From NCBI GenBank assembly GCA_937884605.1, contig CALGDM010000025.1, positions 1 to 37,664 of the forward strand: a DNA stretch of 37,664 nt, read 5' to 3'. A model generated the notes under the pieces. The model was not told the origin of the DNA and made no database searches. It saw only the letters and a program-made list of their open reading frames with translations. A program made the position numbers and the translations under genes. Below are positions 145 to 24,108 of the stretch, in pieces. Positions within the stretch are counted from its first letter, which is position 1; each line of letters opens with the position of its first letter. This stretch comes from an uncultured Spiribacter sp. (lineage in GTDB: Bacteria > Pseudomonadota > Gammaproteobacteria > Nitrococcales > Nitrococcaceae).

Positions 145-1191
145 TCAAGTCGCGCCGGTAAAGGCGTCCAGCATTGCCTCGATGTTTGCCGGGTCGATGC
201 CACGGGTGATGAAAACCAGCCGGGTGCGGTGATCCTCGCTCGGCCACTCATCAAGGACATCGATGGGGTGGAGGATATGCTGCACGCCATGGATGACCAC
301 TGGGCGAGCGTAGCCTTCGATATTGAGAATGCCCTTCACCCGCAGCAGGTCCTCGCCAAGCGTCGCCCGGAGGATATCGAGCCAGGTCTCGAGGACCATC
401 ACCGCGATGGGGGCATCGCGCACGATACTGAACGCGCGGATGTCGTCACTGTGACGGTTCACATCGTGGTGGTGATGATCGTGGGCGTGATGGGCGTGGT
501 CTATCGCCGCGTTCTGGTCCTGCAGCCAGCGCTGGACCTGCGCCGACTTGGTGTCCGGGTCGTACAGCCCCAGCGCCAGTACCGCAGCCGGATCGACATC
601 GCCATGCAGGGCAAGAACGCGCCGGGCGAGGGGATTGAGCGAGGCAAGGCGACCGCGCAGCGATTCCAGTGCGGCATCGTCGGCCAGGTCGGTCTTGCTG
701 ATCAGCAGGGTATCGGCCACCGCCGCCTGCTTGATTGATTCCTCGTGAGCCTCAAGGGTGGCTTCGCCATTCGCCGCATCGACCACGGTGACCACCCCCT
801 GCAGCTCGAAGCGCCGGGCGACGCTCGGCTCCGCCATCAGGGTGTGCAGAATCGGTGCCGGATCGGCGAGGCCGGTGGTTTCGATGACCACCCGGTCGAA
901 CCAGCACTGACCGTTACGCGCGAATCGACTGGGCGCATAGCGAAGTGTCTCCACCAGATCGCCGCGGATCGAGCAGCACAGGCAGCCGCTCGACAGCTCG
1001 ACATAGGTGGCATTCTCACCGCCTTGCGTGACGAGATCATGGTCGAGTCCGATTTCACCGAACTCGTTAACGAGCACCAGTGTTCGGTCCATGGCGGGGC
1101 GCTGCATCAGGGTATTGAGAACGGTGGTCTTGCCGCTCCCGAGAAAGCCGGTCACGACGGTTACCGGAAAGGCGTCGCGGGTTTCGCGCAT
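145..1191 (-). CDS. COG0523 (CobW/YjiA/ZigA-type) GTPase, putative zinc metallochaperone
   Basis: This 348-residue G3E-family P-loop GTPase has Walker A GFLGSGKT at residues 15-22, the family CxCC metal motif (GCLCC, Cys70, Cys72, Cys73), VIETTGLADP after the switch region, SKTD as the G4 motif, and a CobW C-terminal domain. A His-rich linker (AHHAHDHHHHDVNRH, about residues 232-246) is typical of zinc-linked members. Such proteins use GTP hydrolysis to hand zinc or another metal to client enzymes in the cytoplasm. The ATG at 1191 follows a CAGGA ribosome site. The gene diverges from the znu operon across a Zur-box-like palindrome, so zinc-responsive derepression is likely. The exact metal and client are unknown. 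Confidence 0.85.
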   Translation of the reverse strand: MRETRDAFPVTVVTGFLGSGKTTVLNTLMQRPAMDRTLVLVNEFGEIGLDHDLVTQGGENATYVELSSGCLCCSIRGDLVETLRYAPSRFARNGQCWFDRVVIETTGLADPAPILHTLMAEPSVARRFELQGVVTVVDAANGEATLEAHEESIKQAAVADTLLISKTDLADDAALESLRGRLASLNPLARRVLALHGDVDPAAVLALGLYDPDTKSAQVQRWLQDQNAAIDHAHHAHDHHHHDVNRHSDDIRAFSIVRDAPIAVMVLETWLDILRATLGEDLLRVKGILNIEGYARPVVIHGVQHILHPIDVLDEWPSEDHRTRLVFITRGIDPANIEAMLDAFTGAT

Positions 1192-1224
1192 GGGGCAATC
1201 CTGCCTTGACTGTCGAACGATGAG

Positions 1225-1239
1225 TGTTACGTTATAACA
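1225..1239. promoter_or_regulatory. Zur-box-like palindrome between the divergent zinc genes
   Basis: TGTTA-CGTTA-TAACA is a dyad with perfect 5-base arms and a 5-base spacer, set in the only AT-rich stretch of this intergenic region. The half-site and spacing match the core of the gammaproteobacterial Zur operator (TGTTA-N5-TAACA, from general knowledge of the family). It sits 34 bases before the leftward GTPase start and 28 bases before the microprotein start, so one repressor could control both arms. No zur gene lies in the window. Confidence 0.7.
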
Positions 1240-2138: not shown

Positions 2139-3004
2139 TCATCGAGGCGGTCATCCAGCCATTTGCCGAGTTCGGCTTCATGCGCCGCGCATTGGTGGGA
2201 TGCCTGGCCATCTCCCTGGGGGCAACGCCCGTGGGGGTCTTTCTTATGCTGCGGCGCATGAGCCTGACCGGCGATGCCATGTCGCATGCCATTCTGCCCG
2301 GCGCGGCCATTGGTTATCTCATCGCTGGACTGTCGCTGGGCGCCATGACCCTCGGCGGGCTGATTGCGGGGATGCTGGTTGCGCTGGTATCGGCGTTCAT
2401 TTCCCGAGCCACCGCGGCGGGTGAGGATGCCAGCCTGGCGGCGCTTTACCTCATCTCGCTCGCACTGGGGGTGCTGATCGTCTCCACGCGGGGGAGCAAC
2501 GTGGATCTCATGCATGTGCTGTTCGGCACCGTGCTTGCGCTGGACGATGGCGCGCTGGTCCTCCTGTGTTCGATTGCCAGCCTGTCGGTGATCACGGTGG
2601 CCGTGCTGTTCCGGCCCCTGGTGCTCGAATGTGCCGATCCACAGTTCCTGCGCTCGGTCAGCCGCCTGAGTGCACTCACGCATTTCACTTTTCTCACGCT
2701 CGTTGTCCTCAATCTCGTTGGCGGCTTTCACGCGCTCGGTACGCTCATGGCGGTGGGCATCATGATCCTGCCGGCGGCGGCCGGCCGCTTCTGGGTCAGC
2801 AGCCCCGGCGCGCTGGTGGGCATCGCCGTGCTCATCGCCATGCTCTCGAGCATGAGCGGTCTGCTGCTTTCCTATCACTACAGCTTCCCTTCCGGCCCGG
2901 CAATCATTCTGGTGGCGGGCCTTTTCTACACCCTGTCGCTGGTCATTGGGCCGTTTGGCGGGGTGTTGCCGCAAATGATCCCGCGCAAACATCTCAAAGC
3001 CTGA
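2135..3004 (+). CDS. znuB: Zinc ABC transporter permease ZnuB
   Basis: The 289-residue integral inner-membrane permease of the ABC-3 family has about eight hydrophobic segments. The conserved block around MSLTGDAMSHAILPGAAIGY corresponds to the region that contacts the ATPase in this family. The ATG at 2135 overlaps the znuC TGA and is preceded by GGAG. An in-frame codon at 2117 would lengthen the overlap without adding conserved sequence. It forms the membrane channel for zinc delivered by ZnuA. Its length is slightly above that of the E. coli protein. Confidence 0.93.
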   Translation: MIIEAVIQPFAEFGFMRRALVGCLAISLGATPVGVFLMLRRMSLTGDAMSHAILPGAAIGYLIAGLSLGAMTLGGLIAGMLVALVSAFISRATAAGEDASLAALYLISLALGVLIVSTRGSNVDLMHVLFGTVLALDDGALVLLCSIASLSVITVAVLFRPLVLECADPQFLRSVSRLSALTHFTFLTLVVLNLVGGFHALGTLMAVGIMILPAAAGRFWVSSPGALVGIAVLIAMLSSMSGLLLSYHYSFPSGPAIILVAGLFYTLSLVIGPFGGVLPQMIPRKHLKA

Positions 3005-3019
3005 AACAAGGAGCATTGC

Positions 3020-4003
3020 ATGCGTTACAGAAACCCACTCGCACTGGCCGCGACGGGCGTCGCCCTGTCGCTGCTCGGTTCGGCCGCTGTGCCGGCCCAG
3101 ACACCCACACCCGTGGTCGCGTCGTTTTCCATCCTCGGGGACATGGCCGAGCGCATTGGCGGCCCGCAGGTGGATGTCGTCACGCTCGTGGGGCCGGGCG
3201 GTGATGCCCACGTCTATCAGCCCACCCCGCAGGCGGCACAGGCGGTCTCCGACGCCGAGCTTTTCATCGTCAACGGCCTGCAGTTTGAGGGCTGGCTGGA
3301 TCGTCTGGTGGATGCCTCGGACTTTACCGGTCAGCGCGTAGTGGTCACCGACGGCATCGAGCCCATTGCCTTTGGCGAGGCCGCCGACGCACCGGCGGGG
3401 CATGGTGACCATGGCCATGACGATCATGGGCACGATCACGGGCACGATCATGGCGCTTCCGACCCGCACGCCTGGCAGAGTGTCCCCAACGCGGTCACCT
3501 ATGTGGAAAACATTACGGCCGCACTGGTCGCGGCCGACCCGGCGCATGCCGATCGCTTCGAGCAGCGGGCCCAGCGCTACATCGCCGAGCTGGAGGCGCT
3601 GGACGAGCGGATTCGGGCGACGATCGAGTCACTGCCAGCGGATCAGCGCACCGTTGTCACCTCCCATGACGCCTTCCAGTATTTCGCTGACGAATACGGG
3701 GTGAACTTCTTCTCGCCGCAGGGGGTGAGTACCGAGTCCGAGGCGTCGGCCGGGGACGTGGCCGCGCTCATCGAGACCATGCGTGAGCGCAATGTCTCGG
3801 CGGTGTTTTTCGAGAATATCACCGACACCCGCCTGCTCGAGCGTATCGCCGATGAAACCGGTGTCCGCATTGGCGGCACGCTCTACCCGGGCGCGCTCTC
3901 CGAGTCCGATGGCCCCGCCCCCAGTTATATCGAAATGATGGAACACAACGCCGAGACCCTTGAGCAGGCGCTCGGCGCTGATCACGAGGAGTCGCAGTCA
4001 TGA
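3020..4003 (+). CDS. znuA: Periplasmic zinc-binding protein ZnuA
   Basis: The 327-residue cluster A-I solute-binding protein has a signal peptide (basic MRYRN, hydrophobic core, cleavage probably after VPAQ near residue 27). Candidate zinc ligands of the fold are His64 ([11 protein letters not shown]), His150 (DPHAWQ), His216 (SHDAFQYF) and Asp297. Between the first and second ligand lies a His/Asp-rich loop (residues 128-144), the hallmark that separates zinc proteins from manganese proteins in this family. An AAGGAG ribosome site precedes the ATG. The protein is acidic, as expected of a halophile periplasm. The stop overlaps the start of the following GTPase (ATGA). Confidence 0.95.
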
Positions 4004-15673: not shown

Positions 15674-17053
15674 TCACATCGGCTTGTCATCATCCGGATC
15701 GAGCTTGCGATAGAGCGTTCGCCGGCCAATGCCCAGGATTTCCGCCGCCTGTCGGCGGTTGCCGCCCACAGCGTCCAGAACCCGCCGGATATGACGGGCC
15801 TCGACATCAGCAAGGGTTGCCAGTGCGGGTTCGTCGTGCGGTCCGCTGAGCGCCTCGGCGCCTGCCCCCTGACTGATCCGCCGGGGCAGGTCGGCCACCT
15901 CGATGCCATCGCCGCTGGCAAACGTCAGCGCGCGTTCCATGGCGTTGGCCAGCTCGCGCACATTGCCCGGCCAGTCATGGGCTGCCAACGCCATTGAGGC
16001 TTCCGGGGAAAGGGTCGGAGGCTGGCGGTTCTGGCGGGCGGCGGCGGTCGCGAGAAAACCCACCGCCAGACGCGGGATGTCTTCGCCGCGATGGCGCAGG
16101 GGTGGGACAGAGATCGTGAAGGTGTCGATGCGGTAGAACAAATCCTCGCGAAATGTGCCGTCCGCCACGCATTGCTCGAGATCCCGGTTGGTGGCGGCAA
16201 CCAGACGGACGCTGACCTGTCGCTCGGTATCGGCGCCCACCGGTCGCAGCGACCCGTCCTCGAGCACGCGCAGCAGCTTGGCCTGCAGGGCCAGTGGCAT
16301 GTCGCCGATCTCATCAAGAAAAAGGGTGCCGGTATCGGCCGCCTGGAGCAGACCCGAGCGGGCGGTTTCCGCGCCGGTGAATGCCCCGCGGACATGGCCA
16401 AAGAATTCACTTTCGAGCAGATCCGCCGGCACACCGGCGCAATTCACCGCCACAAAGGGTCGATCGGCGCGAGGGCTTTCGGCGTGTAATGCCCCGGCTA
16501 CCAGTTCTTTGCCCGTCCCGCTCTCACCCTGTATCAGTACTGGGCCGTCGGTGGCTGCGATGCGCTCGATACTGCGGTAGAGCTGCTGCATGACCGGGCT
16601 CTGGCCGAGCATGCCGTGAAAACTCTCGCGCCCATGCAGCGCCTCGAAACCGCGCAGTCGCCGGCGCAGTCGGATGTGCTCGAGGGCCCGCTCGACACTG
16701 ACCGCCAGGTGATCCAGGTCGAGGGGCTTGGTGAGAAAGTCATCCGCCGCCTTTTTCAGCGCCTCGACCGCCTGCTCGATCGAGCCGAATCCGGTGATGA
16801 CGATGAACCCAGTTTCTCGGCCATTCGGCCGCTGACGGACATGCTCGAGCAGCTGCATTCCGTCGCCGTCGGGCAGGCGCAGGTCGCTGACGACCACCAC
16901 TGGCGCGAACTGCTCGAGCGCCGCGCGGGCCTGAGTCTCACCGTCGGCCGTCACAACCCGATGGCCTAGACGCTCCAGCTCCTCCTGCAGCAAGGCGCGA
17001 AGGCTCGCGTCGTCTTCGACCACCAGAATGGTCGTGCTGGATGGATGGGTCAT
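15674..17053 (-). CDS. NtrC-family sigma-54-dependent response regulator
   Basis: The 459-residue activator has a receiver domain (acidic VVEDD at residues 11-15, phospho-acceptor Asp57 in VSDLRLPDGDG, Lys in LTKPLD), an AAA+ domain with Walker A GESGTGKE, the sigma-54-contacting GAFTGA loop and Walker B TLFLDEIGDM, and a Fis-type helix-turn-helix (VGGNRRQAAEILGIGRRTLYRKL). It activates sigma-54 promoters when phosphorylated. The ATG overlaps the kinase stop (ATGA). A sigma-54-like promoter lies just beyond the kinase gene. Position suggests control of lactate genes, but the only good sigma-54 site nearby faces the DUF4168 gene. Confidence 0.92.
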   Translation of the reverse strand: MTHPSSTTILVVEDDASLRALLQEELERLGHRVVTADGETQARAALEQFAPVVVVSDLRLPDGDGMQLLEHVRQRPNGRETGFIVITGFGSIEQAVEALKKAADDFLTKPLDLDHLAVSVERALEHIRLRRRLRGFEALHGRESFHGMLGQSPVMQQLYRSIERIAATDGPVLIQGESGTGKELVAGALHAESPRADRPFVAVNCAGVPADLLESEFFGHVRGAFTGAETARSGLLQAADTGTLFLDEIGDMPLALQAKLLRVLEDGSLRPVGADTERQVSVRLVAATNRDLEQCVADGTFREDLFYRIDTFTISVPPLRHRGEDIPRLAVGFLATAAARQNRQPPTLSPEASMALAAHDWPGNVRELANAMERALTFASGDGIEVADLPRRISQGAGAEALSGPHDEPALATLADVEARHIRRVLDAVGGNRRQAAEILGIGRRTLYRKLDPDDDKPM

Positions 17054-18594
17054 TGCGGTGCCTCCGTTTCGCGTCGCGGCAGCCGCAGCACAAAGCAGGC
17101 GCCGGGCAACTCGCCGGTCGCCAGCGCCAGGTCGCCGCCGTGGCTGCGCGCGATACCGTGGGCAACGGCCAGCCCAAGGCCGGTGCCCGAACCCACAGGT
17201 TTGGTGGTATGGAACGGCTCGAACAGCCGGGCGCGTTCAGCCTCCGGGATGCCCGGGCCATCGTCTTCGACCCGGATGCGGCAGAACGCATCATCGTCGA
17301 CCAGAGCCACCCGAATCAGCCCGTGGGGAGTCGCCTGGGCCGAATTGGTGATCAGGTTGCAGATCGCCTCCTCAAGACGGGGGCCATCGACGGCCAGAAT
17401 CGGCTCGTCGGCATCCTCGGCCGGTGGCGACCAGTCAATGCGAACGTCCCGGGCGAGGGGATCGGCACGGGTGCGCTCGACGGCACTGCTCACCAGTCGG
17501 GAGAGTCGGGTCTCGCGGCGCTGGACGGGCTGTTGGCGGGCAAAATCCATTAGTTGCCGCACGGTCTGGCTGATCCGCTCGACTTCACTGCGCATGGCCG
17601 TGACGCTGTCCCGGGTATCGGCATCAAGGTCGTCGCGGCGAAGCAGGCGCTGGGCGCGGCCGTCGATCACCGCGAGCGGTGTGCCCAGTTGGTGGGCGAT
17701 ACCGGCGGACAGCTCGCCGATCGCGGCGAGTTTGCGTGACGCCTGTAGATCGGCCTGCAACGAGGCCTGGGCGCTGCGGCGCTCGGCGATTTCCTCGCTG
17801 GCGTGTTCGATGCGATCCAGCATGGCGTTGAACCCCTGGCCCAGGGCTCGGGTCTCGTGGGGGCCGGTGGGCGTGATGCGATGCTCGAGCTGGCCGTTGG
17901 CGACTCGGCCCATCGCCTGTGACAGGGCGCCTAGCGGGGCACCGATGGCCCGGCGATGGCCCAGCACCACAATCAAGGACAGCAGCAATGCCAATCCCGC
18001 GAGGCTGACCACGCCGGTCACCCGAATGCGCGTGAGCATGTGTCGCAGGCTATCCGGCTGACGGGTGATCTGGAGGATGGCGGCAATTCGCCCGCCCTCG
18101 GTCGTCAATGGCATGAAATAGGCGTAGGTCGGCTCATCGGCCAGTGTGGCATAGCCTTCGCTGCGTGGTTCAAGGCTATCGAGGGCCTCGGCACGCTCGG
18201 TGCTGAAGCGGCGCTCCCCGACGCCGATGCCGGCAAGCAGATCGCCGCCGCGAGCATAGATATGGGCGCCGTAGACCCGCCCGAAGTCAAACGCCGAGCG
18301 CAGTGACTCCTCCAATAGTACCGGCTCGCCCTGTCGAATGGCCTGATTGAGCGGCTGCTGGAGGGCGCGGGCGATCAGCTCAATGTCCTCACGCATGCGC
18401 GCCTCCGCCTCGCGCTCCAGCCAGCTGATCCCCAGCCAGCCGATCGCGCCGACGGTCACGGTCACGGGCAGCACGATGAGCGCGATGATGGTGGTGCGCA
18501 GGCGCACCGCCCCGGCGCTGGGCCATCGTGGCCGTGTCAGCATGGCAGTAACTGAGTCATTCTGGCACCTCTCGATGGGCTGCGTTGGGCTCAT
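17050..18594 (-). CDS. Membrane sensor histidine kinase paired with the NtrC-type regulator
   Basis: The 514-residue protein has a first transmembrane helix at about residues 35-58, a periplasmic sensor domain of about 130 residues, a second helix at about 192-212, a HAMP-like linker, a HisKA domain with His301 in GIAHQLGTPL, and an HATPase domain (NLITNSAQATPHG, VEDDGPGIPEAER, GSGTGLGLAVAHGIARSHGG). It should phosphorylate the regulator encoded immediately downstream. Its ligand is unknown; the periplasmic domain has no recognisable fold here. The start is uncertain: ATG 18594 and ATG 18543 both lack a good ribosome site, and the shorter form still keeps helix 1. Confidence 0.88.
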   Translation of the reverse strand: MSPTQPIERCQNDSVTAMLTRPRWPSAGAVRLRTTIIALIVLPVTVTVGAIGWLGISWLEREAEARMREDIELIARALQQPLNQAIRQGEPVLLEESLRSAFDFGRVYGAHIYARGGDLLAGIGVGERRFSTERAEALDSLEPRSEGYATLADEPTYAYFMPLTTEGGRIAAILQITRQPDSLRHMLTRIRVTGVVSLAGLALLLSLIVVLGHRRAIGAPLGALSQAMGRVANGQLEHRITPTGPHETRALGQGFNAMLDRIEHASEEIAERRSAQASLQADLQASRKLAAIGELSAGIAHQLGTPLAVIDGRAQRLLRRDDLDADTRDSVTAMRSEVERISQTVRQLMDFARQQPVQRRETRLSRLVSSAVERTRADPLARDVRIDWSPPAEDADEPILAVDGPRLEEAICNLITNSAQATPHGLIRVALVDDDAFCRIRVEDDGPGIPEAERARLFEPFHTTKPVGSGTGLGLAVAHGIARSHGGDLALATGELPGACFVLRLPRRETEAPQ

Positions 18595-18621
18595 GCGGCG
18601 TTATTGCCGTCGCGGCCATGT

Positions 18622-18638
18622 TGGCAGGGTGTTTGCAA
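18622..18638 (+). promoter_or_regulatory. Sigma-54-like promoter driving the DUF4168 gene
   Basis: The sequence reads TGGCAG-G-GTGT-TTGCA, with the invariant GG (18623-18624) and GC (18635-18636) separated by exactly 10 bases; it differs from the consensus TGGCACG-N4-TTGCA mainly at one position. The expected start of transcription is near 18648, giving a leader of about 47 bases to the ATG at 18695. The adjacent sigma-54 activator makes this biologically plausible. Confidence 0.72.
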
Positions 18639-18650
18639 TGAATGGACCAC
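18634..18650 (-). promoter_or_regulatory. Opposing sigma-54-like element toward the kinase-regulator genes
   Basis: On the minus strand the sequence reads TGGTCCATTCATTGCA, again with GG and GC spaced by 10 bases and with a full TTGCA -12 box. The -12 overlaps that of the plus-strand promoter at the shared TTGCAA. The predicted start near 18623 lies 29 bases before the kinase ATG. The -24 box is weaker than on the plus strand. Confidence 0.45.
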
Positions 18651-18694
18651 CCGAATGATCGGGCCAACAATGACTGACAGCAAGGAGTCTCAAC

Positions 18695-19030
18695 ATGCAG
18701 ATCAAGACCCCGTTGATGAGCCTGAGCCTGGCCGCCCTTCTGATGGCGTCGATGGGCGCGAGCGCCCAGAGCACCGAATTCTCGGACGAGCAGCTTAATC
18801 AGTTCGTCGAGGCCCAGAGTGAGGTCATGGAAATCCGCAACGAGTATGTCCAGCAGATCGAGTCGACCGAGGATCGCGAAGAGGCGATGGCACTCGAGCA
18901 GGAGGGCAACGAGATGATGATCGAGGCCGTCGAGGACACTGGGCTCAGCGTGGATACCTATAGCGCTATTGCCCAGGCCGCGTCGGATAATCAGGATCTC
19001 GCCCAGCGGATCGAGTCGATGATGAATTGA
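18695..19030 (+). CDS. Exported DUF4168-domain protein
   Basis: The 111-residue protein has a signal peptide (MQIKTPLMSLSLAALLMASMGASAQ, cleavage likely after SAQ near residue 25). The highly acidic helical mature part contains FSDEQLNQFVEAQSEVMEI and a C-terminal LSVDTYSAIAQAASDNQDLAQRI, the DUF4168 pattern. The molecular role of this domain is unknown. The ATG follows CAAGGAGT. It lies downstream of the best sigma-54-like promoter in the window and diverges from the sensor kinase, so it is a candidate target of that two-component system. Confidence 0.82.
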   Translation: MQIKTPLMSLSLAALLMASMGASAQSTEFSDEQLNQFVEAQSEVMEIRNEYVQQIESTEDREEAMALEQEGNEMMIEAVEDTGLSVDTYSAIAQAASDNQDLAQRIESMMN

Positions 19031-19054
19031 TGTTGTTTGCTGTGGAGTGATCCC

Positions 19055-19393
19055 ATGCCTGAAAACCACCGTTTATCTGACACCCGCCACCATCGCTGGC
19101 TTGCGCCGGTGTTGCTGGCTGCAATGATCGGTCTGCCGTCGCTGGCAATGGCCCAGGAGGGGCTGGTCGAAGACTGCGAGATCGATGAATACGAGTACGA
19201 AGCCGTCCAGAACCGCATGTCGATCAGCGGCACGGCGACCTGCAGCGAGGCCCGTCTCGAACTCACCGTCTACGATGACGAGTCGGGCGACGAGCTTGCG
19301 AGCGATTTCACCTATATCGCCGATGGCGAGTTTCAGATTACGCTCAACGCCGAGCCTGCCGAGACGATTTACGTGGAGTACACCATCGAGTAG
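19055..19393 (+). CDS. Small exported acidic protein, unknown function
   Basis: The 112-residue protein has a signal peptide with a hydrophobic core WLAPVLLAAMIGLPSLAMAQ, cleavage likely after AMAQ. The mature part is about 78 residues, very rich in Glu and Asp, with alternating hydrophobic residues (LELTVYDDESG, YIADGEFQITLNAE, TIYVEYTIE) that suggest a small beta-sandwich. Two cysteines (DCEIDE and ATCSEA) may form a disulfide. The GGAG ribosome site favours the ATG at 19055. It follows the DUF4168 gene by 24 bases and is probably cotranscribed. I do not recognise the family. Confidence 0.68.
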   Translation: MPENHRLSDTRHHRWLAPVLLAAMIGLPSLAMAQEGLVEDCEIDEYEYEAVQNRMSISGTATCSEARLELTVYDDESGDELASDFTYIADGEFQITLNAEPAETIYVEYTIE

Positions 19394-19408
19394 CGGTCGG
19401 GCGGGTGA

Positions 19409-20155
19409 TCAGTGCGGGATGAGCGTCTGAAAGGCGAACATCCCCATGAACGCCAGCACGATGACAATCCCCACGCCGGAGGCCGTCAGGCCCTTGTTGG
19501 CATCGGGAATCATTTCGGCGAATACCATCCAGATCATCGCGCCGGCGGCGAGTCCCAGGCCGATGGGCAGAAACGGCTCGAACACCGAGACGAACAGATA
19601 GGCGGGGATGGCCATCAGCGGCTGGGGCAGGCTGGAGAACACCGACCAGGCGGCGGCCTTCCATACCGACACGCCGCGGGGGACCAGTACCAGCGCAATG
19701 GCAAGGCCTTCCGGGATGTTGTGAATGGCGATGGCGGTGGTAATGAAAGCGCCCAGCTGCTCGCCGCCGCCATAGGCAACGCCCACGCCAACCCCTTCGG
19801 CGAATGAGTGAATCGTCATAATGCCCACGATCATCAGCGCCTTGCGGGCGTTGGCGCCCTGCAGATCACCGATGTCGGGCGTATCGTGCTGATCCACCCA
19901 GCGGTCGGCCAGCACGACCAGCACCAGACCACTGCCAATGCCGATCAGCGTGCGCCAGGCATCAATCGCGTTGCCTTCGGAGACCAGACTATGACTGGCG
20001 GCGAGCATCAGTCCGCCGGCCAGGGCCGCGCCAATCGCCAGCCAGCGATCCCCCACCCGGGCCGCAAAGGCCAGCGGCAGGGCGCCAAATCCCGTGGTGA
20101 TGGCGGTAATCAGCGCGGCGATGAAAACCGTGAGCAGCGAAACCTCGACCGTCAT
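19409..20155 (-). CDS. ZIP-family metal transporter
   Basis: The 248-residue integral membrane protein has about eight helices and the ZIP metal-binding helix motifs TIHSFAEGVGVGV and AIHNIPEGLAIALVLVPRG, whose His and Glu residues line the transport site in this family. It probably moves zinc or another divalent cation into the cytoplasm. It lacks the long His-rich cytoplasmic loop of many eukaryotic ZIPs; a short DQHDTPDIGD segment sits there instead. No clear Zur-like site precedes it, unlike the znu locus. It converges on the preceding exported-protein gene with a 15-base gap. Confidence 0.85.
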   Translation of the reverse strand: MTVEVSLLTVFIAALITAITTGFGALPLAFAARVGDRWLAIGAALAGGLMLAASHSLVSEGNAIDAWRTLIGIGSGLVLVVLADRWVDQHDTPDIGDLQGANARKALMIVGIMTIHSFAEGVGVGVAYGGGEQLGAFITTAIAIHNIPEGLAIALVLVPRGVSVWKAAAWSVFSSLPQPLMAIPAYLFVSVFEPFLPIGLGLAAGAMIWMVFAEMIPDANKGLTASGVGIVIVLAFMGMFAFQTLIPH

Positions 20156-22603: not shown

Positions 22604-22915
22604 TCAGAATCGCTCGGCGCGCAGTACCTGGCAATCCGTCACACTGACCACCCCGATATGGCGGTCGACGACTTCGAAGGCGGCATCCAGCAGCGGATCC
22701 ACACGCTCGGGCCGGACGATGCAGACCACATTGACCATGCCGCCGATGCGGCTGACCTGGCCTTCGCCGCTCCAGTGCCCCGAGCGCCCCGATCCGCCCA
22801 GCACTGGCAACACGCTGAAGCCGGTGACGCCGGCTTTGATCAACGCCGCGCTCAGGCGCTCCTCCATGATCGATTCGATGATGATCTCGACGCGTTTTGC
22901 CTCATGGGTCTGCAT
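22604..22915 (-). CDS. PII-like signalling protein (SbtB-type)
   Basis: The 103-residue protein has PII-like alternation (RVEIIIESIMEERLSAALIKAGVTGFSVLPVLGG) and a short, Gly/Ser-rich T-loop (GGSGRSGHWSGEGQV) in place of the longer loop of GlnB/GlnK, and it lacks the uridylylated Tyr context. It lies four bases after the SbtA-type transporter gene, with GGAGG just upstream, so it should be the transporter's nucleotide-sensing partner. The C-terminal Cys-containing extension of cyanobacterial SbtB is absent. Confidence 0.78.
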   Translation of the reverse strand: MQTHEAKRVEIIIESIMEERLSAALIKAGVTGFSVLPVLGGSGRSGHWSGEGQVSRIGGMVNVVCIVRPERVDPLLDAAFEVVDRHIGVVSVTDCQVLRAERF

Positions 22916-22919
22916 GGCA

Positions 22920-23900
22920 TCAGCCTCCGGTCAGGGCCTGCGATAGCGCCAGGTAGATGGGGATCCCCAGCGTCAGATTAAACGGGAATGTCACCCCCAG
23001 CGAGAGGGTGAGATAGACGGAGGGGTTGGCCTCGGGCAGCGCCACGCGCATCGCCGCCGGCACCGCGATGTACGACGCGGAGGCCGCCAGCGTCATGAAC
23101 AGCAACACGCCGCCGGGACTCAGCCCCAGAGCCAGACCGGCCCCTAGCCCGAACAGCGAGCCCACCAGCGGCATCACCACGCCAAAAGCGAACAGCCCGG
23201 CCGTGAGCACGGATTTGGCCTCGCGAAGGCCGCGACCGGCGACCAGCCCCATATCCAGCAGGAACAGGCAGAGCACGCCCTGGAATGGTTCTTCGATGAA
23301 CGGCGCGATCATCTGCATGCCCTCATCGCCAGTGATCCCGCCGATCAGGAATGAACCGACGAGCAGCACGATGGAGCCGTTGAGCAGGATCTCGCGGACC
23401 AGACCTTCCTCCATCGCGCCGGCCTGCTGGCCCGAGCGCGCGATAATCCACAGCGCCGAGAGGATTGCCGGGGCTTCCATCACCGCGGCAACCGCCACCA
23501 TGTAGCCCTCCGGCGACAGGCCCGCCGACTCCGCCACCGAGGTGGCGGCGACAAAGGTCACAATCGAGATCGAGCCGTAATGCCCGGCTACGGCCGCCGC
23601 ATCGGTCACCGACAGCCGCGACATCACCCGCAATAGCCCAAAGGCAATCAGCGGGAGCACGAACGACAGGATGATCCCCGCGATCAGTGACAGCACCAGC
23701 GTGGCATCCACGCCGTGGGCGGCCACACTGGCCCCGCCCTTGAAGCCGATGGCAAAGAGCAGATAGATGGATAGCCCCTTGGCGATCGCCTCGGGGATCG
23801 AAAGATCCGATCGCGCAAATGCCGCGGCAACGCCGAGCACAAAGAATAGGATGATCGGTGATGTGAGATTGTCCGCCGCGAGCGCCAGTGTGCCTTCCAT
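22920..23900 (-). CDS. sbtA: SbtA-family sodium-dependent bicarbonate transporter
   Basis: The 326-residue membrane protein of the SbtA (DUF897) family has about ten helices. Characteristic stretches are LTSPIILFFVLGVAAAFARSDL, GLSIYLLFAIGFKGG, VAGHYGSISIVTFVAAT, EAPAILSALWI and CLFLLDMGLVAGRGL. The family imports bicarbonate with sodium; a sodium-driven carrier fits a saline habitat. The ATG at 23900 follows GGGGTGG; an in-frame start at 23951 is less likely. The next gene, a PII-like protein, is the known kind of regulator for this transporter. The window has no RuBisCO or carboxysome genes, so anaplerotic carbon supply is a reasonable guess. Confidence 0.85.
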   Translation of the reverse strand: MEGTLALAADNLTSPIILFFVLGVAAAFARSDLSIPEAIAKGLSIYLLFAIGFKGGASVAAHGVDATLVLSLIAGIILSFVLPLIAFGLLRVMSRLSVTDAAAVAGHYGSISIVTFVAATSVAESAGLSPEGYMVAVAAVMEAPAILSALWIIARSGQQAGAMEEGLVREILLNGSIVLLVGSFLIGGITGDEGMQMIAPFIEEPFQGVLCLFLLDMGLVAGRGLREAKSVLTAGLFAFGVVMPLVGSLFGLGAGLALGLSPGGVLLFMTLAASASYIAVPAAMRVALPEANPSVYLTLSLGVTFPFNLTLGIPIYLALSQALTGG

Positions 23901-24108
23901 TTCCACCCCGTTGATTCGTGACCCTGCAGTGCCTGATTCAAGACGTCGCAAAGACTACCCGAATCGCGGTGGCGCGCCTACACAGGAACGGGGTGTAGCG
24001 GCGGTCAAGTGATCGGTTGCCTCTGGCTTTGCTGGCTGCAATGCACCTGCTTTACGTACGCTGGGGACTATGGGGACTCGAATGGCTTGAGCGACCAGGG
24101 AGCAGATG
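23901..24108. other. Divergent intergenic region, no gene seen
   Basis: These 208 bases separate sbtA (leftward) from the methyltransferase (rightward) and must hold both promoters. A weak TTGCTG (24029-24034) and TTACGT (24052-24057) pair at 17 bases faces right. I see no strong palindrome or sigma-54 element. Confidence 0.3.

Follow-up and report, generated by a model that had tools for sequence, protein, structure and literature searches.

The closest described relative of the locus analysed here is the zraP/zraSR system of E. coli and Salmonella, in which, as in our sequence, a two-component system with an NtrC-type regulator is divergent from the gene of a small periplasmic protein. In the available parts of the sources, ZraR is said to govern the divergent sigma-54 promoters of zraSR and zraP (PMC4987338), and in E. 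coli the centres of the two sigma-54 motifs, 4199755 and 4199909, are separated by 154 bp (PMC4591121). As described there, the zra motifs are separate, whereas the pair reported here overlaps within one 28-bp element. The accessible excerpt of PMC4987338 also gives the GlrR sites at glmY/glmZ as TGTC(N)10GACA. Like the candidate palindromes considered below, the GlrR sites pair TGTC with an inverted GACA and belong to a sigma-54 response regulator, but the half sites here are 5 bp apart (TGTC-N5-GRCA) instead of 10. Azotobacter VnfA has targets whose sigma-54-dependent promoters diverge from a single intergenic region (PMC9542535, seen in part); the divergence is as here, the text available states no overlap, and neither the regulators nor the targets look related.

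Bidirectional promoters with a symmetric -10 element also use a shared core. As far as the portion of that paper at hand goes, they are of the -10/-35 type, whereas the core here would be the -12 or -24 of sigma-54, with an activator needed; the words sigma54 and RpoN are absent from the paper. Among the papers listed on overlapping, opposing or bidirectional sigma-54 promoters, none reports a shared-core pair, as judged by titles or the start of abstracts.

The window, i.e. the whole stretch of 37,664 nucleotides analysed, comes from a salt-loving bacterium (genome G000). S. salilacus (G005), of the same genus, is a species of Ectothiorhodospiraceae.

Genes and proteins encoded at the locus

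The features of the locus are listed in Table 1. The gene content agrees with the sequence-only reading from which this analysis started: DUF4168 and a further exported protein on one side, a sensor kinase and a regulator carrying GAFTGA on the other.

Table 1. Position of genes, predicted promoter elements and candidate regulator sites in the window.
Feature	Position	Strand	Remarks
NtrC-type response regulator	15674..17053	-	GAFTGA, Fis-type HTH; Response_reg, Sigma54_activat, HTH_8
Sensor histidine kinase	17050..18543	-	Start taken as conserved ATG 18543; HAMP, HisKA, HATPase_c
Candidate regulator site 1 (UAS), CGTGTCAGCATGGCAGT	18533..18549		Overlaps kinase start codon; 3/14 mismatches to TGTGYCA-N3-TGRCACA
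Candidate regulator site 2 (UAS), TGAGTCATTCTGGCACC	18553..18569		20 bp from site 1; 2/14 mismatches
Predicted transcription start toward kinase, if minus site works	18622	-	Inferred by symmetry with plus site
Predicted sigma-54 promoter (-24/-12) of DUF4168 gene (plus site), TGGCAGGGTGTTTGCA	18622..18637	+	11/12 consensus positions, GG-N10-GC
Opposed sigma-54-like site (minus site), TGGTCCATTCATTGCA	18634..18649 (read 18649-18634)	-	10/12; -12 TGCA in common with plus site; faces kinase and regulator
Predicted transcription start toward DUF4168	18649	+	Inferred from pyrimidine-purine step at offset; Y 23/28, R 23/28 aligned loci
Hairpin at predicted 5' end of DUF4168 mRNA, CCCGAATGATCGGG	18650..18663	+	Similar hairpins in family loci
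Likely ribosome-binding site of DUF4168 gene, AAGGAG	18682..18687	+	From sequence
DUF4168 protein, 111 aa	18695..19030	+	Acidic, predicted exported, all-helical; PF13767 E 1.5e-15
Small acidic protein, 112 aa	19055..19393	+	Predicted exported; searched as longer frame 19037-19393

The DUF4168 protein scores 58.4 bits against PF13767 (gathering cut-off 25.8). The only other Pfam hit on it was NOG1_N, below cut-off, and no metal-resistance family was matched. Its AlphaFold2 model (pLDDT 94.2) consists of four helices. A ZraP/Spy-like fold was assayed and dropped, as no PDB fold match reached E 0.001; the PDB sequence search gave nothing better than E 0.1. No mention of DUF4168 was found in the literature searched. 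The 112-aa small protein had no Pfam or NCBIfam match; its gene follows that of DUF4168 in the five kinase-bearing genomes of the genus (G000, G001, G013, G007, G005). The acidic, exported character proposed for these proteins holds for both: they are predicted to be exported (the signal peptide of DUF4168 was judged by eye), and the part after the assumed signal peptide has a pI of 4.05 in each.

The two-component system was compared with named families. Against NCBIfam, the kinase scores 131.2 bits (ZraS cut-off 479) and the regulator 355.5 bits against ZraR (cut-off 760) and 351.9 bits against GlrR (cut-off 763). A ZraPSR identity was thus rejected: kinase and regulator are far below the ZraS and ZraR cut-offs, and the exported protein is a DUF4168 protein, not ZraP-like. 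The genome encodes RpoN (PF04552 over cut-off, E 1.5e-65).

Downstream of the regulator lie genes for a lactate permease and a lactate dehydrogenase. Their membership in the circuit was considered and dropped after comparison of seven regions, in which the permease was matched beside G001 and G013 alone and the dehydrogenase nowhere (these regions may end too early). At 22604-23951, a PII-like protein gene adjoins a membrane symporter gene, a pair that we take to be SbtB/SbtA-like; it also adjoins the DUF4168 locus in G007. An inverted duplication was seen in G001 (L123:561-3149), with one ORF translation at both 561-1226 (+) and 2484-3149 (-).

The predicted sigma-54 promoter of DUF4168

In the plus site, GG (18623-24) and GC (18635-36) are separated by N10. 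It is the sole exact match of TGGC-N7-TTGCW in the 37.7 kb window. With one mismatch allowed, 24 matches were found in the window against 18.7 expected, so the loose motif has little meaning by itself. Across the whole genome (1.8 Mb), the exact pattern has 44 matches, compared with 23 for its reversed control.

The site was then compared across genomes. Of the 23 family genomes, eight, the window's included, encode a homolog of the kinase with an E value of at most 1e-60. In all eight, DUF4168 lies divergently beside the kinase and a sigma-54 site of 11/12 is found on the DUF4168 side. The survey of the order gave 54 DUF4168 matches in 37 of 54 genomes, namely 24 kinase-linked loci, 29 unlinked ones and L162 of G028, which lies at a contig end and was excluded from the count (site 11/12). 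A locus was called unlinked if a kinase was matched neither within 1.5 kb (first set) nor in the 1.5 kb upstream (second set, with less flank at a contig end for L228); L145 had only 98 bp upstream. Each plus site was the highest-scoring candidate that had both GG and GC; the invariance of these sites in alignments is therefore built in, and the comparison of linked with unlinked loci is the test. A site of at least 10/12 was present at 24/24 linked loci and at 7/29 unlinked ones (3/13 in the first set, 4/16 in the second). This strongly supports the proposal that a sigma-54 promoter fires toward DUF4168, and on sequence comparison the plus site is almost certainly that promoter.

Two further observations concern the distribution of such loci. 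In G008 (L141), DUF4168 and the small protein gene are kept, but there is neither a sigma-54 site nor, within 1.5 kb, a kinase; the genome is incomplete, and the locus has possibly decayed. At eight loci from other orders of the class (L186, L191, L192, L194, L195, L202, L203 and L206), the regulator gene precedes DUF4168 and runs the same way. These loci have sigma-54 sites that score 11/12 or 12/12, together with similar palindromes at 1 to 3 mismatches.

At the predicted 5' end of the mRNA, hairpins starting at +1 to +3 were found in 9/11 family loci, with bases differing between loci, which suggests that other constraints also bear on the start spot. Among the other 17 loci, weaker pairing at +1 to +3 was seen in only four (G026, G037, G038, G046). 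Pairing was read off printed structures, and the z-scores are mostly weak, falling below -2 in G021b only.

Candidate binding sites of the regulator

Two palindromes lie at the start codon of the kinase (Table 1), a feature absent from the sequence-only reading. Site 1 has a counterpart at equal distance (82 bp from its centre to the -24 GG) in G001 and G013 (2 mismatches each) and in G007 (4 mismatches). For site 2 this distance is 62 bp in G000, G001, G013 and G007. In its genome, site 2 is the only match of TGWGTCANNNTGRCACA at one mismatch and the best match of its pattern.

Across the order, the palindrome TGTGYCA-N3-TGRCACA lies upstream of the -24 element, at a centre distance of 55 to 206 bp where it is clear. 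Allowing at most 2 mismatches, it was found at 20/24 linked loci against 5/29 unlinked ones; the palindrome of G041 (1 mismatch) fell outside the range searched for the former count. Exact copies occur in G032, G033, G034, G039 and G040. The palindrome is thus likely to be the binding site of the regulator, as judged from its distribution. Since the two copies are so close to the kinase start, a feedback of the regulator on the kinase is also suggested.

Second, unlinked copies of DUF4168 with a sigma-54 site were observed in G021 (L133, 12/12), G041 (L217, 10/12) and G039 (L229, 11/12). Their palindromes have 2, 2 and 1 mismatches, respectively, and no kinase was seen nearby; they are likely second targets of the same regulator in trans. 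Regarding other regulon members in the window's genome, no other palindrome match was found within 1 kb of an exact sigma-54 match when the two lists were compared by eye.

The opposed site and its two registers

Both motifs of the proposed pair are present where they had been described, each with GG-N10-GC. The minus site uses the same GC as the plus site, and the two overlap by TGCA within an element of 28 bp. The overlap described earlier as a shared TTGCAA is real, with the small correction that the common stretch is TGCA plus one base on each side. Overlapping opposed elements with a common core, by which a bidirectional promoter is recognized, are thus found in the window sequence. The symmetric double pattern TGG-N9-TGCA-N9-CCA occurs at nine places in the genome, and only the window copy has TGGC and TTGC on one strand.

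Within the genus, the minus half is found in 2/5 kinase-bearing genomes, the window's and that of S. salilacus. G001 and G013, whose kinase is 75% identical, lack it, as does G007 (66%). Conservation of the minus -24, set beforehand as a test that could refute the bidirectional reading, therefore gave a divided answer, in part against that reading: the element is kept in S. salilacus and lacking in these three congeners.

Over the wider sample, an overlapping opposed site of at least 10/12 was found at 12/26 divergent loci (14/26 at a threshold of at least 9/12; in the remaining 12/26 no opposed site reached 9/12) and at 0/14 loci without a divergent kinase. The same-strand control gave extra sites at 0/26 divergent loci. 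Background density predicts 0.26 opposed overlapping sites against the 12 observed; with the plus site fixed and the flanks shuffled, the mean was 0.22 and 0/2000 shuffles reached 12 (shuffling kept base counts, not dinucleotides). Counted by groups, the opposed site is present in 5/16 against 0.10 expected, or in 4/15 without the window. A bidirectional overlapping site is thus supported as something recurrent in the order, while the window's own minus half is not kept in the three congeners named above.

These sets require some precision. The 14-locus set comprises 8 loci where a co-directional regulator lies upstream and 6 whose fetched flank showed neither kinase nor regulator. L187, where a site of 10/12 but no system was seen, and L197, where the divergent gene is that of a regulator instead of a kinase and the minus GG is missing, were excluded from both sets, as was L162 of G028, which is included in the 28-locus counts. 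Divergent arrangement and clade are confounded, because 11 of the 14 non-divergent loci lie outside the order: opposed sites of at least 9/12 were found inside the order at 14/24 divergent and 0/3 other loci, and outside it at 0/2 and 0/11, respectively.

The opposed site occurs in two forms. In the first, as in the window, the -12 is shared (G000, G005, G027, G029, G030, G031 and G041, as well as G021a and G023 at 9/12). In the second, the -24 is shared (G032, G033, G034, G039 and G040); the common part is TGGCATGCC, or TGGCATACC in G034, and the minus -12, AGCAAA or AGCAAG, lies just upstream. The five loci with the shared -24 form clade g11+g13, in which the 8 bases holding the minus -12 include 6 invariant columns, against 1/37 further upstream and 0/30 downstream of the plus site. 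In clade g10 (4 kinase-linked loci, two of which, G030 and G031, are close), the minus -24 GGCCA is invariant at 5/5 columns, against 2/7 before and 3/18 after it. In both clades the blocks were chosen after the sequences had been seen. A fifth g10 locus, in G028, where the kinase is unknown at the contig end, lacks the minus GG. In the kinase tree, built with one short row (G030), the shared -24 form corresponds to one clade and g10 to another; the shared -12 state needs at least 6 changes and has therefore been repeatedly gained or lost.

Alternative explanations of the opposed site

The opposed match might not be a promoter at all. The plus promoter alone would then work, the kinase and regulator would be expressed from an ordinary weak promoter, and the minus match would be a by-product of the palindromic TGCA core together with a start-site GG and pyrimidine-purine (YR) step. 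We consider this possible, though rather doubtful. It agrees with the absence of the minus half in the three congeners, and with what chance gives for such a core: at background sites with a plus GG-N9-TGCA, a minus GG is found in 74/420 (17.6%). Given that chance rate, a minus GG at 9/28 loci is weak evidence (p 0.046; 8/27 without the window, p 0.088), and 9/41 with the class-level loci is unremarkable (p 0.29; these are 28 new loci, L186-L213, out of a larger number of matches). Moreover, a GG + YR signature is enriched near the plus start in the 28 aligned loci and could explain part of the shared -12 form (+12 register), and CC at that start-site spot is found in only 6/16 groups. When divergent loci are compared with the rest, a minus GG is present at 9/27 against 0/11 (Fisher p 0.038, on sets slightly unlike the 26/14 comparison); the 4 further unlinked sigma-54 sites of the second unlinked set have none in the +12 register.

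Several results speak against such a by-product. With the plus site fixed, opposed sites are far more numerous than the shuffles predict. The shared -24 form (-6 register) is present in 5/5 loci of clade g11+g13. Start-site sequence cannot account for this form, since its private half, which is conserved, is found on the upstream side of the plus -24. A crude scan of 18400-19450 revealed no sigma-70-like promoter for the kinase. Non-overlapping minus-strand sigma-54 sites of at least 10/12 were also sought upstream of the kinase; the single match is in G023, 139 bp to the left of the plus site.

Next to the plus site, one clade has conserved GCAGCAAA upstream and another has conserved GGCCA at the start. 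It is improbable that these bases have their role in binding another protein or at the 5' end of the RNA and look like reverse sigma-54 halves by accident: the 5' hairpins of the family loci would fit such a role, but two registers in two clades both complete an opposite-strand GG-N10-GC site, and the loci of clade g10 have no predicted pairing starting within 3 bases of the start.

Altogether, we consider it about an even bet that the window's own minus site is a functional promoter.

A proposed sigma-54 circuit

The reading we favour, as somewhat more likely than not, is that of a dedicated sigma-54 circuit in which two overlapping promoters at one locus exclude each other. The kinase would detect an envelope signal and phosphorylate the NtrC-type regulator, which would then bind the paired palindromes TGTGYCA-N3-TGRCACA at the kinase start. 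By looping, the bound regulator could activate RpoN polymerase at 18622-18637, and the activated plus promoter would drive expression of DUF4168 and the small protein that follows. The polymerase may also sit in reverse on the same DNA, through the shared -12 core, giving a low, regulator-dependent expression of kinase and regulator. The palindromes are located downstream of this predicted minus start. As the sites overlap, use of the plus and minus promoters would be mutually exclusive, so that reverse occupancy would shut out the plus promoter for that time. Where a lineage lacks the minus half, its kinase must be expressed in some other way. Of this scheme, the plus promoter, the palindromes, the link to the kinase and the excess of opposed overlapping sites in the order come from the comparison of genomes, whereas the identity of the binding regulator, looping, the choice of direction, self-activation and a working minus half in the window are inferred.

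A broader possibility, to which we give a little less than an even chance, is that part of the order uses true bidirectional sigma-54 promoters, with one footprint and a shared -12 or -24, at which the activated regulator picks either its own system or the exported output. Each firing direction would exclude the other, and the circuit would therefore be self-limiting without a repressor.

Bidirectional promoters have been described for -10 elements that are symmetric. Their sigma-54 counterpart would depend fully on an activator, and the way in which the silent closed complex is oriented would determine the gene that this activator switches on. Such a promoter would be a simple self-limiting device for a sensor system. 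For the organisms of this order, the comparison names the target, DUF4168, and the likely binding site of an unnamed two-component system at 24 loci, and it provides a first functional context for DUF4168.
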